34,331 bases of DNA from Bacteroidales bacterium. GTDB lineage: Bacteria > Bacteroidota > Bacteroidia > Bacteroidales > UBA932. Shown piece by piece: positions 22,473-29,204 of this stretch. A program made the position numbers and the translations under genes. The notes beneath the pieces are model-generated. The model made no database searches and was not told the origin of the DNA. It was given only the letters and a program-made list of their open reading frames with translations. The DNA lies in the NCBI GenBank assembly GCA_022648545.1, contig JALCMP010000021.1, forward strand, positions 1-34,331, given 5' to 3'. Position 1 is the first letter of the stretch. Each line of letters begins with the position of its first letter.

Positions 22473-23759
22473 TTAGAATAATGCAGTTACAGCTGATATT
22501 ATATTTTCAGATTCCGCCGACTGAGGGAAAATCAGATCGGATTTTTTCATGTATACTCTGTTTTCTTCTTTTATTTTATCTTCTCCGCCCCCGGTTATGT
22601 TCAGCATAATTTTCTGGTCTTTTTTTACGGAGCCTTTTCTTATTGCTTTTTCCAGACTTGCTACGGCGCATGCAGCAGCATGATATATATCAATGCCTTC
22701 TGTTTTTTCAAAGAGTTTTCTGGCTTTTTCTATTTCGCGATTGGTTGCTGATTCCATTTCTCCTCCGGCTTCCTTAAGACTGTCGTATAATCCCCCGGCA
22801 AGCGAATATGGAGGTTTTCTGTTTGAAAGGACTTTTGCTACTATTTCAAGAGCTCTGGCCCTTTCTACATCCTGGTTGAAATGTTTTAATTCTCTTTTTC
22901 CAGCCTTGTATGCATCGTACATTGGAGTGAAAGGAGCATTTTGCGAGGCTATCAATTTAGTTACCGTATTGCCGAAACGTCCGTCTTCTATAAGACGCAT
23001 GTTAGTTTCATGTGCAGCAATGGTGCCGGTGCCACTTCCAACGGCCTGGAAATATACGTCTGGAATGCTTCCTATGAATTCGGCGGCTGATATGAATGTG
23101 GTTCCCATACCGTCTCTGCGCGCTACGTTTTTTGCTCCGCCCTCGTCGAGGAACAATGGGGATTCGCATAATTTTCCCGCAAGTTGTATTGCATCGAAAT
23201 AATCGCTGTTATCAGGAGTGCAGATGACTTTTACACATTTATCGAGCGGTTCTATAAACCATAATGCATCAAGGTTTTCATGCGGTATTGATATAACAAG
23301 CGGTATGTGGTTGTGCGAACATACTTTTGCGAAAGCCCTTGCGGTATTGCCGGCAGAAGCAACCACAAGTATGCTTTTATTCTCTTTTGGCAACCTTGCA
23401 CATACGGAATATGCTTCTGTTTCCTTAAAGGAACAGGATTCCATGCAGGCTCCTATGCCAGGATTATATCCGGAAAATGTTATGTACAGATTATCGAGCC
23501 CAAGTTCGGATGCCAGTCCTTTGCTTTTGTAGGTTACCGGTGCGTGCGATCTTTCCAGCATCCTGCTTATAGGCAGCCAGTCCGCATATTTATAAAAGCC
23601 AAAAGAGTTGTCCTTTATATTTATCTGTTTGTTTTTGTAAACTGCGCGAACCAGCGAAGGAACCGGGGATTCAGGATCGGCAAGAGTCCAGCCTTCGTCT
23701 TTGAATTCTCGTTTGGTCGCGCAGTTTATAAGAGTATAATCGGTAGGTTCTATTTCCAT
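22473..23759 (-). CDS. Cysteate synthase (PLP-dependent, threonine-synthase-like)
   Basis: A 428-residue fold-type II PLP enzyme. Members of the cysteate synthase group, first described in Methanosarcina, replace the phosphate of O-phosphoserine with sulfite to give L-cysteate. Seen: an N-terminal segment resembling a threonine synthase zinc-finger-like start (YTLINCATKREFKDEGW, with most Cys absent) then VPSLVRAVY and YADWLPI; the PLP lysine in CSFKETEAY (K112); SAGNTARAFA (135-144), which holds the cofactor ring; GSGTGTIAAHE (241-251), the phosphate-cradle loop; and ITGGGEDKI near the end. In Bacteroidota cysteate is the polar precursor of capnine and sulfonolipids. It is the last gene of the Hdr-like operon, one base after the previous stop. 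Ordinary threonine synthase is the main alternative, but the K112 and N-terminal motifs do not fit it well. Confidence 0.78.
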   Translation of the reverse strand: MEIEPTDYTLINCATKREFKDEGWTLADPESPVPSLVRAVYKNKQINIKDNSFGFYKYADWLPISRMLERSHAPVTYKSKGLASELGLDNLYITFSGYNPGIGACMESCSFKETEAYSVCARLPKENKSILVVASAGNTARAFAKVCSHNHIPLVISIPHENLDALWFIEPLDKCVKVICTPDNSDYFDAIQLAGKLCESPLFLDEGGAKNVARRDGMGTTFISAAEFIGSIPDVYFQAVGSGTGTIAAHETNMRLIEDGRFGNTVTKLIASQNAPFTPMYDAYKAGKRELKHFNQDVERARALEIVAKVLSNRKPPYSLAGGLYDSLKEAGGEMESATNREIEKARKLFEKTEGIDIYHAAACAVASLEKAIRKGSVKKDQKIMLNITGGGEDKIKEENRVYMKKSDLIFPQSAESENIISAVTALF

Positions 23760-23760
23760 T

Positions 23761-25605
23761 TTATATTTGTTTGTTTTTAATGATATTCTTGTTTACGGCC
23801 TGAGCCAGATCCATTACAGGTATTTCGGCCATATTGCCGAATGTTTTATAGCATAACGGGCATGCGGTTACTATGTTCTCGGGGTTGTTGATAATAAGCG
23901 AATCCAGGGAATCTTCCGTTATTTTGTTTCTGTCGTGGTAATTGAGAGTTATACTTCCAAGGCTGCCTCCGCAGCATATGCTTTCCTTTCTTTCTTTTCC
24001 GGCCTTTTTTAATTCTCCGAGCATTTTTATTATGTTTCGTGGCGGTTCGTATATTCCGCAGCCTCGTCCCAGTTCGCATGGATCGTGATAAACGTAGCTC
24101 ATATTATTCTTTTTTACATTTATCCGCTTTTTTTGAATAAGTTCTTCTATGTATTCCGAGTGATGAAGAATACGTATTCCTTTTAGTGAATATTCTTCGC
24201 GGAAAATTTTAAGACAGATAGGGCAGTTTAGTATCATAGTGTTGCAGCCACTGTCCATTATCATTTTGGTATTTGCTTCAATGACTTCGCGTGCCGCCCG
24301 GGTTTTTCCTGCAAGCATAAGCGGTCTTCCGCAGCAAAGTCCTCCGTTTTCGTCGGCAAAATAATAATCGGTTCCGGCCGCATCGAAAATTCCCGTCATT
24401 GCTTTTATTATGGCGGGGGTAAGGTGTGTCATGCAACCGGCGAAATAGAGCACTTTTTCTTTTCCGGGATCGGTGCTGCAGTCAGGTTGGGGGACGGGGT
24501 AGAGCCCCGGTTTTTTAAGGAATCCATAATCATATGGAAGTATGTTTGTTATGGTTTCTCTTTGCGCCTGGCGTATGCCGCACGAGTCGATACTTACCGG
24601 GCATATTGACGAGCATTTACCGCACATGAGACATTTCTGGGCTATCTCGTTTATTTTTCGGGTGTTGTGTCTTCTTAAAAATCTTATAAAATATACGGAT
24701 GAATATTTTACGTTTTTCTTAAGTACGTTCATTGGGCAGGCATCTATGCATAATCCGCATCCGGGACAAGAATAAATCTCGGCTTCCGCAAATCCCTTGC
24801 GCGGCTTGGTTACTTTAAGGCCAGCGTTGCGGAACAGTATGAGAACAGTTTCAGTTACAATATGCATATAGCGGCTGAAAGGCATGGCAAAAAAGAAAAG
24901 TCCCAGGGCTATGGAGTATGCCCACCATGTAGGCAGAATGTTCAGATCGTTGCCGAAGAAGCTGGCGAATACATAGTGTATTGAATTGGTAAGAAAGCCT
25001 CCTCCGCTTATTCCGGCAGTAAAGCCTTCTGCCAGAAGTCTCAACGGAAATATGGACCACAATGCGTATAATCCTATTCTGTCTGCAAGCGATGGTTTTG
25101 TGGTTCTTTTCATCCCGAATATTATGGAACGGAATCTTTTTATTATGGCAAGGGTTATGCCGCTTAGCACCATAAGAAGAAAGAAATCCATGAGGAAGAA
25201 GAAAAAGCCGCCCCTTATGGTATGGTGCTGTTCGGCGACGAAGTATCTGTAAAAAACGGGATAATATAGTATTCCGTTGCGTTCGGGGACGAACAGGGCA
25301 ACTTCTATATGTCCAAGCAATATTAGCATGAACCACCCGAAAGCTATGCTCGCGTGCATATATCCCAGCAGAGCCTTTCTTTTGAATATTTTTACATGGA
25401 TCAGACAGTCGCATATAATGTCCCTGATATTCTTAAGGATTGTCTTAGGAGTGATAAGTGAAATCAGCAGTTTCTTGCGGTCACCTGAAGGAATATTGTA
25501 TAATATTCTTACGAACCCTATCAGCAGGTATGCTCCCAGAAATATGACGCCGGCCATGAACGGCAGAACAAAATTGTCATATCCGCCTATTATTCTGTCT
25601 TTCAT
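23761..25605 (-). CDS. HdrB2/HdrD-like iron-sulfur protein fused to an HdrE-like membrane domain
   Basis: A 614-residue fusion. Residues 1-260 are a cytochrome-b-like membrane domain with about five helices and His residues that could bind heme (H84 in GYMHASIAFGW, H99, H211, H248 in SRYMHIVTE), similar to NarI/HdrE. Residues 280-335 carry two [4Fe-4S] motifs, CPGCGLCIDACP (280-291) and CLMCGKCSSICP (325-336). Residues 390-600 hold two complete CCG modules: C391, C424-C425, C461-C464 and C510, C544-C545, C582-C585, as in the thiol/disulfide site of HdrB and HdrD. I infer that it passes electrons between a thiol-reactive cluster and the menaquinone pool. Its ATG overlaps the preceding stop by 4 bases. 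Alternatives: a GlpC- or DsrK-like subunit, or a QmoC relative. Confidence 0.82.
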   Translation of the reverse strand: MKDRIIGGYDNFVLPFMAGVIFLGAYLLIGFVRILYNIPSGDRKKLLISLITPKTILKNIRDIICDCLIHVKIFKRKALLGYMHASIAFGWFMLILLGHIEVALFVPERNGILYYPVFYRYFVAEQHHTIRGGFFFFLMDFFLLMVLSGITLAIIKRFRSIIFGMKRTTKPSLADRIGLYALWSIFPLRLLAEGFTAGISGGGFLTNSIHYVFASFFGNDLNILPTWWAYSIALGLFFFAMPFSRYMHIVTETVLILFRNAGLKVTKPRKGFAEAEIYSCPGCGLCIDACPMNVLKKNVKYSSVYFIRFLRRHNTRKINEIAQKCLMCGKCSSICPVSIDSCGIRQAQRETITNILPYDYGFLKKPGLYPVPQPDCSTDPGKEKVLYFAGCMTHLTPAIIKAMTGIFDAAGTDYYFADENGGLCCGRPLMLAGKTRAAREVIEANTKMIMDSGCNTMILNCPICLKIFREEYSLKGIRILHHSEYIEELIQKKRINVKKNNMSYVYHDPCELGRGCGIYEPPRNIIKMLGELKKAGKERKESICCGGSLGSITLNYHDRNKITEDSLDSLIINNPENIVTACPLCYKTFGNMAEIPVMDLAQAVNKNIIKNKQI

Positions 25606-25934
25606 TGCTTTTTGCCGTAAATTTTAGTAATGGAAAGCAGTAAGTTTCTGGTATTTATAGAGCGCGGACAAACCAAAGTGCATTTCCCGCATAACAGACA
25701 TGATGCGGCAAAATCTACGGCTGCCTTTTCATTGCAATCCAATATGGATAATATTGCTTTTCTTAAGCTTGTATCTGTGTATTTTCCGGCCGTGCAGCTT
25801 GCAGTGCATGATCCGCATCCTATGCATAGCAAAACGTCAGGTTCGGATTTCGACAACTTTTCGAATTTGTTCCTGTCGAAATTGTCCAGATTTATTCTGG
25901 AACTGGGATTTAGAGTATATCCGAAATCAATCAT
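25602..25934 (-). CDS. HdrC2-like small iron-sulfur protein
   Basis: A 110-residue ferredoxin-like protein with two [4Fe-4S] motifs, CIGCGSCTASC near residue 37 and CLLCGKCTLVCP near residue 80, the spacing of HdrC-type subunits. It would pass electrons between the flavoprotein HdrA and HdrB2. The start is the ATG at 25934, which overlaps the hdrA stop (ATGATTGA); the track frame also has an upstream TTG. The stop overlaps the next ATG by 4 bases. It is about half the size of the HdrC1 in this operon, lacking its C-terminal extension. Confidence 0.85.
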   Translation of the reverse strand: MIDFGYTLNPSSRINLDNFDRNKFEKLSKSEPDVLLCIGCGSCTASCTAGKYTDTSLRKAILSILDCNEKAAVDFAASCLLCGKCTLVCPRSINTRNLLLSITKIYGKKQ

Positions 25935-26958
25935 TTGCAAAACTTTCTACGTATTCTTTTATGGAGAGGACTGCCGATCTGGCTTCATTTATTGTTTCAG
26001 GTATTGTTTTCGGGCCAAGACATGTTCCGGCAAAAAAGATTCCCCTGTATGCGGATTTCTCGAGATTATAAAAACTATCTTCGGAATTGAAAAATCCGTC
26101 GTCATCTCTGAGGACGGCCAGTTGTCCGGCCGTTTTTATTCCGGCTTCACTGTTTTTCATTCCCGCCATAAGGACAACGAGATCCATAGTTATTTTTATT
26201 GGTTTACCCATCAAGGTGTCTTCGGCCTTTACAATAAGTTTTCCTTCCTTATTTTCTGAAATTTCAGAAACCCTTCCTCTTATGAATCTTACACCGCATT
26301 CATGTTGTGCCTTGTAATATAGGTCTTCGTAGTGACGGCCGAACATCCTTAGATCCATGTAGAAACTGTATACGTTTGCATCGGGAAAGCGTTCTTTTAT
26401 TTCGCAAGCCTGTTTTACGGCGGTTGCACAACAAACTTTCGAACATTGCCTGTTGCCTATTTTTTCGTCCCTCGATCCCACGCAATGGATGAATCCTATA
26501 TTTTTCGGATTGGCAGGTATTCTTTCATCCTTACCAGTCTTGAAGTATTGCTCCAGATCCTTGTTGGTAATTACTTTATTATAAATGCCGTATCCATATT
26601 CTTCTTTCTTTTCGGCAGGGAAAATATCAAATCCGGTAGCAAATAATACGGCACGCGCCAGAACCGTAATTCCGTTTGAGAGTTCGATATCATAGGCGTC
26701 GTTGCGAAGGTTCATCTTTATGATTTCCGTATTGAGGAAACAATTTACGTCGCTTATGTTGTTTTTTAATATATCCAGCAGATCGTCAGCTTTTATGCTT
26801 TCGGGAAATAATCTGTCCCAGCAGGCGAGGTGTCCGCCAAGGCTTGGCCCTTTTTCAACAAGAATGACATTCATCCCTTCGTTTTTTAATCTGTATGCCG
26901 CTTCCATACCGCAGGGACCTCCGCCTATTATAACAATGTTTTTATTTGCATGTTTCAT
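25927..26958 (-). CDS. HdrA-like flavoprotein (core-only, no ferredoxin domains)
   Basis: A 343-residue FAD protein of the HdrA type. It begins directly with the dinucleotide fold (IVIIGGGPCGMEAAYRL, then EKGPSLGGHL) and contains the diagnostic HdrA iron-sulfur segment HCVGSRDEKIGNRQCSKVCCA, with Cys at 159, 172, 176 and 177 from this start, plus a terminal GIFFAGTCLGPKTIPETINEAR FAD motif. It lacks the N-terminal domain and the inserted and C-terminal ferredoxin domains of methanogen HdrA, so it is the compact form seen in sHdr and QmoA-type complexes. The ATG at 26958 overlaps the hdrB1 stop (TGATG); an ATG two codons earlier is possible. It would be the flavin hub of the complex. Confidence 0.87.
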   Translation of the reverse strand: MKHANKNIVIIGGGPCGMEAAYRLKNEGMNVILVEKGPSLGGHLACWDRLFPESIKADDLLDILKNNISDVNCFLNTEIIKMNLRNDAYDIELSNGITVLARAVLFATGFDIFPAEKKEEYGYGIYNKVITNKDLEQYFKTGKDERIPANPKNIGFIHCVGSRDEKIGNRQCSKVCCATAVKQACEIKERFPDANVYSFYMDLRMFGRHYEDLYYKAQHECGVRFIRGRVSEISENKEGKLIVKAEDTLMGKPIKITMDLVVLMAGMKNSEAGIKTAGQLAVLRDDDGFFNSEDSFYNLEKSAYRGIFFAGTCLGPKTIPETINEARSAVLSIKEYVESFAND

Positions 26959-28016
26959 CAGCATGGAGATTTTTCAGGTTCGCCTATGAATTTTCCGTTT
27001 ACTCCCAGATATTTCTTTGCTGGATCGTATTTTATCCCCATTTTATCAAGTAAAGGCTCGGAACCAACCTGATGGGTTTGCAAACCCAGATCCCACGGGT
27101 CATATCCCAGAACAAGTCCGGCAACTTCTTCGTAAGTGAGTACGGGTATCCCGTGTCCCTTGCCTCCGTATGTCTTGCCCTGTGTTTCTGCTATAACATA
27201 TTGCCATCTGTCCATGAAATATGTGCATCCGGGACAGTTGGTGATTATCATATCGGGCTCGTAGGGTTCCATGGATTCGAACTTTTTGTACGTGTTGGCC
27301 AGAGAGTATCCTCTGTCGCTTTGTATAAAATATTGTCTGAAACCAAAGCCGCAGCAATGTCTTCTTTCCGGGTAATCTATGATTTCGCCTCCCCATGATT
27401 CTACCATTCCCACAAGTACATATGGATATTCCGCTCCTCCGAATCCTTTAGACGGAAACATCTTGGAATAATGGCACCCAATATGTTCCACAACTCTGAG
27501 CGGACGTCCTGTTTTTACATTAACCAGCCTGTATTTTGCCATAGATGCTATGCGTTCGCGGTATTTATAAATAAGATCGCAGGTATGTGCGAGAAATTTT
27601 GGTTTTGCAAATTCCAAATGGCAGGATTCCCAAAGATCTTCTTTAACTTTGGCTTCAACTTCCGGAAATCTTCTCCATGTTTCGAGCGTTTCGTTGTACA
27701 ATCCGAAAGATGTTATGCAGGAACATACGAAATTTTCATATCCGTATTTTTTCATAAGGGCGAATTGCCGTGCAATTATGGTCATGGAAGTTTCTTGGGG
27801 AATTGCATCACAGTGATATGCTATTCCGCCGCATGTCGTATGGTGTTCGGTCTCAAATATGTCCTTTCCCATCAATTTTCTGGTTATTTCCAGAAAAGCC
27901 TGTTCGGAAGCAGTAAAGAACATTTGTCTTATGCAGCTTCTTGCATAAAAATAATGATCGTCCGGAATATCTTTTTGATATTCCGACCAGATCTTTTTTT
28001 TGCCTTCGTATATCAT
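26958..28016 (-). CDS. HdrB1-like CCG-domain iron-sulfur protein, first CCG module degenerate
   Basis: A 352-residue HdrB-type protein. The second CCG module is intact: C181 (HIGCHYSKM), C221-C222 (RRHCCGFGF) and C261-C264 (NCPGCTYF). The first is altered: C28 is present, the CC pair reads Thr61-Cys62 (TTCGGIA) and the CxxC pair reads C98-Ser-C100, so a noncubane [4Fe-4S] cluster may form only in the second half. HdrB subunits hold the thiol/disulfide catalytic clusters. The gene starts one base after the hdrC1 stop. The C-terminal 70 residues, with GYDPWDLGLQTHQVG, have no role I can name. Confidence 0.83.
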   Translation of the reverse strand: MIYEGKKKIWSEYQKDIPDDHYFYARSCIRQMFFTASEQAFLEITRKLMGKDIFETEHHTTCGGIAYHCDAIPQETSMTIIARQFALMKKYGYENFVCSCITSFGLYNETLETWRRFPEVEAKVKEDLWESCHLEFAKPKFLAHTCDLIYKYRERIASMAKYRLVNVKTGRPLRVVEHIGCHYSKMFPSKGFGGAEYPYVLVGMVESWGGEIIDYPERRHCCGFGFRQYFIQSDRGYSLANTYKKFESMEPYEPDMIITNCPGCTYFMDRWQYVIAETQGKTYGGKGHGIPVLTYEEVAGLVLGYDPWDLGLQTHQVGSEPLLDKMGIKYDPAKKYLGVNGKFIGEPEKSPC

Positions 28017-28017
28017 T

Positions 28018-28716
28018 TTATTTTTTATTCAGATGGTTCTTTTTCGTTTCCGTAAATACTTTATGGAAATATTCGTCTTCTGTAAGTCCTTCTTTGTCTG
28101 CTATTTCCTTTGAGACTTTATTTATTTTATCCATAATTGCCGTAGCTCCGGTTCGGTCGAATATCTTTTTCAGATCGTCCAGATCTTCCTTGGGAATTTT
28201 TCTGAGAGGGCCGGGGCCTTCGCCGTCGAGATTCGCTCCCAGTCGTGCATAAACGTCTTCGAGATGTTTTTCCTGCCATTTCCAGACTTTTCCCGCTTCG
28301 GGAAACATGTCATAGTGAAAGGTTCTCGGATATACGCAATATCCGTATTTCAATATATTTGTCCCCAGCATTTTGTTCAGCGCGAACTGCTGCCGTCCTT
28401 TTTCGGATTCGGCAAAATATCCAAGTCTCTGCGACAAGCTCCTTAATGCCATAACTACAAGTCCGGGACTGTTGTTCCTGGGGCATCTAGTAGTGCAGGA
28501 AAGACATTCGCCGCAATACCATATAGTCTCGCTCTTAAGAAGTTTTTCTATTTCAGTTTCGTCCTTGGATTGTACGATATTTATGATTTTTCTTGGATCG
28601 TAATCGTAAAATTCGGCTGCCGGACATATTGCCGTACACGTACCGCAATTTATGCAGGAAGTGAGACTTCCGGTAAAACGGCAATCCTGCAGTAACATAT
28701 CATATAATTTTTCCAT
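28018..28716 (-). CDS. HdrC1-like iron-sulfur subunit
   Basis: A 232-residue protein with two [4Fe-4S] motifs in its first third: CINCGTCTAICP (21-32) and CGECLSCTTRCP (68-79). The rest is helical and hydrophilic, with a Pro-rich patch (GPGPLRKIP) and no membrane segment. It corresponds to HdrC of soluble Hdr complexes and would hand electrons between HdrA and HdrB1. It is the second gene of the operon, 5 bases behind marR and one base ahead of hdrB1. Confidence 0.87.
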   Translation of the reverse strand: MEKLYDMLLQDCRFTGSLTSCINCGTCTAICPAAEFYDYDPRKIINIVQSKDETEIEKLLKSETIWYCGECLSCTTRCPRNNSPGLVVMALRSLSQRLGYFAESEKGRQQFALNKMLGTNILKYGYCVYPRTFHYDMFPEAGKVWKWQEKHLEDVYARLGANLDGEGPGPLRKIPKEDLDDLKKIFDRTGATAIMDKINKVSKEIADKEGLTEDEYFHKVFTETKKNHLNKK

Positions 28717-28721
28717 TCGGA

Positions 28722-29204
28722 TTATTTTTCCACAGTGTTTTGTTTCTGTTTATGCTGGATTTGCAAAGGACTGATGTCCTGCCGCATGTTCGTTGCCATT
28801 GCGGCGAGAACCTTTATGAAGATGCCGAGATCTTTTTTGGAGATTCCTTCTATAACCATGTCAACCGACTTTATGGCGACTTCGGTTACATGATCTTTTA
28901 TCTCCTCGGCCATTCGGGTAAGTTGTATTATGTTCTGTCTGCGGTCTTTTTTATCGATTACGCGTTTTACGAATTTCTTTTTTTCGAGACCGTCGAGAAG
29001 TTTTACAACCGAATTTTTATCCTTTATTATTAGATTTGCGATTTCCTGCTGGGACATATCGCCTTCGTCCCAAAGAGCATCCAGGACAAGGAATTGTTCA
29101 GGTGTTATATTACAGCCCTGTTCCTTGAATATTTCGCTGATATATTGCTTGAATTTGCAATGAACCAGATTTAAATATACGCCGACCTGCTTGTTAAGTA
29201 TCAT
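28722..29204 (-). CDS. MarR-family transcriptional regulator
   Basis: A 160-residue winged-helix protein of the MarR type: N-terminal helix, then TPEQFLVLDALWDEGDMSQQEIANLI (recognition helix-turn-helix, about 34-60), KDKNSVVKLLDGLEKKKFVKR and the wing DKKDRRQNIIQLT. The C-terminal helices form the dimer interface. It is the first gene of the Hdr-cysteate synthase operon. A perfect 8-base inverted repeat lies 7-32 bases upstream of its start, over the promoter, so autoregulation of the whole operon is likely; MarR proteins often sense thiols, oxidants or phenolics, but the signal here cannot be read. C16 is the only Cys near the N-terminus that might be redox-sensitive. Confidence 0.92.
   Translation of the reverse strand: MILNKQVGVYLNLVHCKFKQYISEIFKEQGCNITPEQFLVLDALWDEGDMSQQEIANLIIKDKNSVVKLLDGLEKKKFVKRVIDKKDRRQNIIQLTRMAEEIKDHVTEVAIKSVDMVIEGISKKDLGIFIKVLAAMATNMRQDISPLQIQHKQKQNTVEK

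Follow-up and report, generated by a model that had tools for sequence, protein, structure and literature searches.

A 34,331-nucleotide stretch of DNA from a Bacteroidales bacterium (contig JALCMP010000021.1 of assembly GCA_022648545.1, hereafter the window) carries a run of heterodisulfide reductase-like (Hdr) genes that closes with a gene for cysteate synthase. The locus raises the question of why redox subunits resembling those of the sulfur-oxidizing sHdr complex should be encoded together with an enzyme of lipid biosynthesis. On the basis of gene neighborhoods and co-occurrence in related genomes, the Hdr operon is very probably linked to the synthesis of sulfonolipids, and the provision of sulfite, the co-substrate of cysteate synthase, is likely to be the reason for this link. 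The sulfonolipid pathway has been described as proceeding through cysteate synthase, cysteate-C-fatty acyltransferase (CFAT) and ketocapnine reductase, and sulfonolipids of gut Bacteroidales have been reported to be immune-active (PMC11211663).

The operon comprises seven consecutive open reading frames (ORFs) at positions 22473-29204. A preliminary description of this DNA, made from the letters alone, had noted seven tightly spaced minus-strand genes, and their coordinates, order, strand and spacing were all confirmed:

28722..29204, minus strand: MarR-family regulator, first gene of the operon (Pfam MarR, 49.7 bits)
28018..28716, minus strand: HdrC1, with two 4Fe-4S clusters (NCBIfam HdrC, 93-96 bits, under the cut-offs; solved HdrC chains, E 4e-13)
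26958..28016, minus strand: HdrB1, with one complete CCG site and a degenerate N-terminal half (NCBIfam HdrB, 125 bits, under the cut-off)
25927..26964, minus strand: HdrA, a compact sHdrA-type flavoprotein of 345 aa (6tjr_A, E 1.2e-60; tree)
25602..25940 from a TTG start, or from an ATG at 25934, minus strand: HdrC2, a small two-cluster ferredoxin-like subunit (Pfam Fer4 models)
23761..25605, minus strand: HdrB2-E (B2E), with an N-terminal membrane domain, two 4Fe-4S clusters and two complete CCG sites (alignment, Foldseek)
22473..23759, minus strand: cysteate synthase, PALP fold, last gene of the operon (TIGR03844, 457.6 bits)

The gap between marR and C1 is 5 bases, and those between C1 and B1 and between B2E and the synthase are 1 base each. 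B1 and A overlap by 7 bases, C2 and B2E by 4, and A and C2 by 14 from the TTG start or by 8 from the ATG two codons on. Pfam and NCBIfam models assign the proteins to the MarR, Fer4, CCG, FAD/NAD and PALP families. The marR gene keeps its position in G002, G034, RUG13464 (L138) and G553, the last from the same family as the window, and the position of C2 between A and B2E is conserved in relatives. The genome of the window (G000) spans 2.37 Mb and is 85% complete.

Linkage to cysteate synthase and sulfonolipid genes

The naming of the last gene as a cysteate synthase held, its TIGR03844 score lying well above the cut-off of 324.9, compared with 67.7 bits for the best threonine synthase model. 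Among the 37 genomes of the window's genus, HdrB1 was found in 34 and TIGR03844 above cut-off in 36, and the two genes lie a few kb apart on one contig in 30. In two more (G004 and G025), B2E adjoins the synthase where the contig breaks off, bringing the linkage total to 32/37; because operon and synthase are joined this often, their linkage in the genus is more than chance. HdrB1 and the synthase are on separate contigs in G001, G013 and G023, with B1 near a contig edge, and they are apart in G035, where another gene follows the hdr operon. Two loci titled Candidatus Cryptobacteroides (L113 and L119) showed the identical order of Hdr and cysteate synthase genes. Transporter genes were seen at either end of the run in two genomes: a SulP anion transporter directly after the synthase in G553 (L159:12894-14648), and a PHO4/PiT-family permease immediately before C1 in G040 (L040:7712-8836).

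The C1-B1-A-C2-B2E core recurs across Bacteroidales. HdrB1 was present as a true homolog in 7 of the 24 other genomes of a 61-genome sample of the order (one of them a fragment) and in 92 of the 295 genomes of a larger Bacteroidales sample. A trait of Bacteroidota as a whole was rejected, as the window's own genome was the only high-identity match among 296 genomes sampled from the phylum, with four others at 26-31%. A scan of named genomes, in which 580 of 594 stretches were confirmed and the best 80 loci kept, gave 62 loci titled Bacteroidota or subgroups, 16 cyanobacterial loci, one Deltaproteobacteria and one Syntrophaceae; these numbers set a minimum for how widely the genes occur beyond Bacteroidota. 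All five subunits scored above thresholds in 49 of the 62 Bacteroidota loci; contig ends truncate some of the remaining loci. Several Bacteroidales genomes carry two HdrB1 genes (e.g., G404, G357, G410, G546 and G610).

CFAT is encoded elsewhere in the window's genome (G000:C9:2747-3967) and was found in 35 of the 37 genus genomes. It matches the CFAT of locus L044 at 66%. The ketoreductase-like SDR protein beside it matches that of L044 at 35%, the SDRs being too alike for naming by sequence. In other genomes CFAT adjoins the five Hdr genes directly, in five further arrangements at 11 distinct loci, where ZnPALP denotes a PALP-fold protein with a zinc ribbon:

L044 (the window's genus, all on one strand): VOC-CFAT-KCR-C1-B1-A-C2-B2E-CysS
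L082, L086, L100, L123 and L149 (the last with no ORF called for VOC): CFAT-ZnPALP-KCR-VOC-C1-C2-B2E-B1-A
L134 and L152 (the latter with no ORF called for VOC): CFAT-ZnPALP-C1-B1-A-C2-B2E-KCR-VOC
L078 and L150: CFAT-ZnPALP-C1-B1-A-C2-B2E
L151: C1-B1-A-C2-B2E-CFAT

The CFAT, SDR, VOC-fold and zinc-ribbon PALP neighbors were found by clustering ORFs at L044, L078, L082, L086, L100, L123 and L134; L149, L150, L151 and L152 added four loci, and L148 and L086 are one locus. The CFAT next to Hdr scored 529 bits against PDB 28eh, which bears the name cysteate-C-fatty acyltransferase, and 545 against 7u7h, compared with 236 against serine palmitoyltransferase. Neighbor counts were made by tblastn, as ORF-based counts miss genes under antisense ORFs.

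The zinc-ribbon PALP adjoins CFAT at several loci (L082:2781-3998, L153:14399-15721 and others) and scores under the threonine synthase and TIGR03844 cut-offs; it is probably a second kind of cysteate synthase. A two-domain VOC/glyoxalase-fold protein of 356 aa (L044:12970-14037, minus strand) recurs at L082, L123, L134, L148, L153-L155 and L162, in both Hdr-type clusters and the CysH-type sulfonolipid clusters described below. It matches no NCBIfam family and only weakly any PDB entry, and it may catalyze a further step of the lipid pathway.

Co-occurrence points the same way. Across the 295 Bacteroidales genomes, CFAT was present in 86 of the 92 with Hdr versus 123 of the 203 without (odds ratio 9.3, Fisher p 9e-10, uncorrected for kinship). 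Where the positions of HdrB1 and its partner are both available, the two are no more than 15 kb apart in 5 of 73 genomes for CFAT (0.66 expected), in 7 of 48 for a PALP gene (0.44 expected; three of the seven are from the window's family) and in 0 of 37 for CysD. Neighborhoods and co-occurrence thus support the link to sulfonolipid synthesis drawn in the preliminary description. The same description had taken hdr genes without cysteate synthase in most relatives to speak against the module, and outside the genus this is what was found: strict coupling of Hdr and synthase fails there because TIGR03844 does not reach its cut-off in 59 of the order's 92 Hdr genomes. The earlier interpretation is therefore partly supported: the link holds for the pathway as a whole, through CFAT, and in part through the zinc-ribbon PALP enzyme.

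The Hdr subunits and the membrane-fused B2E

HdrA aligns over residues 8-335 with residues 2-336 of the solved chain 6tjr_A, that is, from end to end; this chain was deposited as a flavoprotein domain protein, and we take it to be the sHdrA of Hyphomicrobium denitrificans. A tree of 37 HdrA rows (22 Bacteroidales, eight cyanobacteria, one locus titled Deltaproteobacteria, 6tjr, and five long HdrA or Qmo-like proteins) split the compact HdrAs from the five long proteins with support of 98/95. Within it, Bacteroidales and cyanobacteria formed one group (92/97), with 6tjr, the single sHdr row, outside on a long branch. The match and the tree together bear out the earlier assignment of a compact, sHdrA-type HdrA. 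Membership in QmoABC or HdrABC was rejected on the basis of this tree and of the length of HdrA, which lacks the extra Fe-S domains of long HdrA. The likeness to sHdr gene order, also claimed earlier, stands in part: the order C1-B1-A-C2-B2 is kept, but the hyp gene of the published order hdrC1B1A-hyp-hdrC2B2 (PMC6067878) is missing from the operon, where C2 overlaps A, and this speaks against a plain member of the sHdr family.

The residues of the HdrB1 CCG site (C181, C221, C222, C261 and C264) are invariant among 22 sequences, and an AlphaFold2 model of HdrB1 (pLDDT 83.7) gave HdrB chain 5odc_B as its top Foldseek match (TM 0.72/0.86). In B2E, every cluster cysteine and the histidines H70, H84 and H248, which presumably bind heme, are invariant in 44 sequences (58 in another set). 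The predicted structure of B2E (pLDDT 90.9) matched best to 9ojn, EtfD (TMq 0.72), an ETF:menaquinone reductase. This best fold match supports the earlier description of a membrane-fused B2, with B2E modeled as an HdrD-like protein joined to a membrane domain in a quinone-reductase-like architecture. Kinship with glycolate or lactate oxidases was rejected because the LdhH, TfrB, GlcF and GlpC models match the CCG/Fer4 part only and far under their cut-offs. The genome encodes one other strong CCG protein (G000:C32, L147:5791-9927), by eye the third gene of an apparent anaerobic glycerol-3-phosphate dehydrogenase operon.

Proposed sulfite supply and its alternatives

From these features we infer a complex together with its direction, sulfur substrate, carrier and quinone acceptor. 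C1, B1, A, C2 and B2E would form a membrane-bound relative of the sHdr complex and would oxidize reduced sulfur, either sulfide or a small-thiol persulfide, to sulfite. The electrons would travel by way of Fe-S and flavin sites into the B2E membrane domain and from there to menaquinone. Cysteate synthase would use the sulfite at once, together with O-phosphoserine, after which CFAT and a ketoreductase, whose genes lie elsewhere in the genome, would build the capnine backbone of sulfonolipids. Oxidative formation of sulfite is favored because no other step of the lipid pathway needs a multi-cluster redox complex and because sulfide oxidation is downhill; with potentials of -116 mV for HSO3-/HS- and -74 mV for menaquinone, it would yield about -24 kJ/mol, and more at low sulfite. 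The EtfD-like fold of B2E and the oxidation-type genes beside the related cyanobacterial operons also speak for this route. Taken as a full route, quinone-linked oxidative sulfite formation for cysteate has in our judgment slightly better than an even chance of being correct.

The same genes could be read in the reductive direction, in which electrons from menaquinol would cleave thiosulfate or an S-sulfonate, R-S-SO3- yielding RSH and sulfite. Methanogen Hdr uses CCG sites of this family for disulfide reduction, B1 has the HdrB fold, and such a reaction would explain the neighborhoods equally well and make a lipoate carrier unnecessary. However, thiosulfate reduction (-402 mV) lies far below menaquinone, related cyanobacterial operons sit among oxidation-type genes, and the genes noted next to the operon include no thiosulfate importer, although no search was aimed at one. 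We consider the reductive reaction unlikely.

The case for sulfite as the connecting metabolite draws on clusters in which sulfate-to-sulfite enzymes take the position of Hdr beside CFAT, indicating that the lipid chemistry as such can proceed without Hdr. G392 and G496 contain CFAT and VOC-CysH-CysD-CysN-transporter-CysQ-ZnPALP, G589 has this arrangement as far as its contig reaches, and G475 contains ZnPALP-CysH-CFAT and KCR-VOC, with CysH between ZnPALP and CFAT (CysH, CysN and CysQ named by NCBIfam above cut-off, CysD assigned separately). Among the 209 genomes with CFAT, 53 carry Hdr and CysD, 33 Hdr only, 97 CysD only and 26 neither, a negative association (odds ratio 0.43, p 0.008). It is stronger in those that also have a PALP match (21 both, 24 Hdr only, 65 CysD only, 15 neither; odds ratio 0.20, p 1e-4). 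Taking a single genome from each family gave, with PALP, a median odds ratio of 0.25 and a median p of 0.0275 (59 families), and six of the ten families mixed for Hdr and CysD hold both an Hdr-only and a CysD-only genome. In the window's genus, PF01507 matches of CysH/CysD strength were absent from 35 of 37 genomes, being present only in G009 and G014; six further genomes had weaker or long-frame matches, and the window's genome had none.

A number of findings weigh against this reading. Strict mutual exclusion of Hdr and CysD was rejected, as 53 of the 86 Hdr genomes with CFAT also carry CysD. G496 holds both Hdr and the CysH-type cluster, the 26 genomes with neither system nevertheless have CFAT, four of the ten mixed families do not show the split, and the overall association weakens with one genome per family (median odds ratio 0.41, p 0.087, 95 families). 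The link to the lipid itself is also loosened: CFAT is common regardless of Hdr, and the test of their association is uncorrected for kinship. Six of the 92 Hdr genomes lack CFAT, including G057 (99% complete) and G556 (94%), and G007, of the window's genus, has CFAT with neither Hdr nor the synthase. Of the 92 Hdr genomes, 59 are without TIGR03844 above cut-off, as noted, and 44 without any PALP match at E<=1e-22; sulfonolipid genes are missing from the examined flank at 49 of the 62 Bacteroidota loci.

Several of these points, together with the presence of CysD in 58 of the 92 Hdr genomes and of two HdrB1 copies in some, would suit a thiol- or persulfide-menaquinone oxidoreductase that serves anaerobic redox balance or sulfide detoxification, sulfite being a by-product and the gene placement a convenience. 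Such a general role would not predict the five CFAT arrangements, the genus-wide operon with cysteate synthase or the frequency of CFAT among Hdr genomes, nor that HdrB1 is never near CysD, which is equally a sulfur gene, and we regard it as improbable.

The sulfur carrier bears on a further alternative, that of a canonical sHdr system in which lipoate-bound sulfur on the lipoate-binding protein LbpA, or on a moonlighting GcvH, encoded elsewhere, is oxidized to sulfite. The nearest sHdr match of HdrA (6tjr) and the sHdr gene order without hyp agree with this, and a GcvH of 136-151 bits was found in 36 of the 37 genus genomes. The hdr-like sulfur-oxidation genes have been described as inevitably associated with LbpA, and most LbpAs as having two cysteines (PMC6067878), but the single GCV_H match of the window's genome has one cysteine and lies in an unrelated neighborhood. 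Two Hdr genomes, G040 (98% complete) and G053 (99%), had no GCV_H match in a search spanning the 61 genomes of the order sample, and some genomes of the genus gave an additional weak match (about 22-26 bits) that spans positions 20-80 only. The genome-wide check for LbpA proposed in the preliminary description thus returned none, hyp being likewise missing, and an LbpA encoded elsewhere was rejected on this GCV_H search. We judge the canonical system quite unlikely.

The missing carriers count against the oxidative route as well. The flanks, at most 9 kb long and in many cases less, contained a GcvH/LbpA-like or TusA-like match in 0 of the 62 Bacteroidota loci and a GcvH-like match in 0 of the 16 cyanobacterial loci (query, a Bacteroidales GcvH). 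TusA as a general carrier was rejected for the genus, being found in 5 of 37 genomes in frames of 720-840 aa; in the window's genome the TusA domain (G000:C9:53053-53259) lies inside an 835 aa frame. At L038 (G059:C11, outside the genus), the Hdr operon comes directly after a run of TusA, FlpD-like, HdrA-like and Qmo-like genes and is followed by a methionine gamma-lyase-like gene (names by eye except TusA).

We tentatively propose, at somewhat less than even confidence, that the operon encodes a lipoate-free, menaquinone-linked sulfite synthase by which strict anaerobes of gut and rumen oxidize sulfide or persulfide by six electrons for biosynthesis. Such an enzyme would free sulfonolipid production from both sulfate assimilation and oxygen, and the sHdr family would gain an anabolic branch with a common origin with the cyanobacterial sulfide-oxidation branch. 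If the wider oxidative route is correct, the operon would be a source of sulfite for sulfonolipids in anaerobes without sulfate assimilation, an energy enzyme family would have been put to biosynthetic use, and sulfide could feed an immune-active lipid. The literature searched contained nothing joining sulfonolipid with heterodisulfide reductase, or capnine with cysteate and sulfite, and no discussion of the origin of sulfite in anaerobes without sulfate assimilation; the word sulfite is absent from the available text of PMC11211663.

Comparison with known systems

The nearest relatives outside Bacteroidota in the searches made are cyanobacterial C1-B1-A-C-B operons (a Picosynechococcus plasmid and the 16 loci), in which B1 is 35-48% and A 38-45% identical. 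They differ in that B2 is a separate HdrB of 290 aa without a membrane domain and in their sulfide-oxidation-type neighbors: 11 of the 16 loci have SQR-like (under the NCBIfam cut-off), TauE, rhodanese, SulP or metallo-beta-lactamase-fold genes nearby. SQR-like, TauE, rhodanese and SulP genes were seen beside the operons at L059, L062, L064, L067, L070 and L057, with psbA-like genes also at L062 and L064. These operons possibly serve sulfane-sulfur oxidation in sulfide-tolerant cyanobacteria; hdr genes have been noted in one such cyanobacterium, where the account in PMC8002359 neither gives them a function nor ties them to sulfide.

The sHdr systems of Hyphomicrobium, Acidithiobacillus and Aquifex share with the operon a compact HdrA, the order of C1, B1, A, C2 and B2, CCG subunits and, as proposed product, sulfite (PMC6067878), and sHdr was assigned to Proteobacteria metagenome-assembled genomes in the data of PMC12345210. 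The operon differs in having no hyp and no nearby LbpA, in its membrane-fused B2 and in its cysteate synthase; this comparison rests on one reference, the 6tjr HdrA at 33% identity, as plasmids yielded no proteobacterial sHdr. Methanogen HdrABC and HdrDE share the HdrB fold, with B1, and the CCG sites, whereas the HdrA of HdrABC is long (chains of 640-670 aa) and falls outside the compact clade. EtfD of M. smegmatis (9ojn) likewise combines a membrane domain, two 4Fe-4S clusters and two CCG domains in a single chain, but at 17% identity and without Hdr partners. Finally, CysD-CysN-CysH sulfate assimilation takes the place of Hdr next to CFAT in four genomes (G392, G496, G589 and G475), with unrelated enzymes that form sulfite from sulfate.

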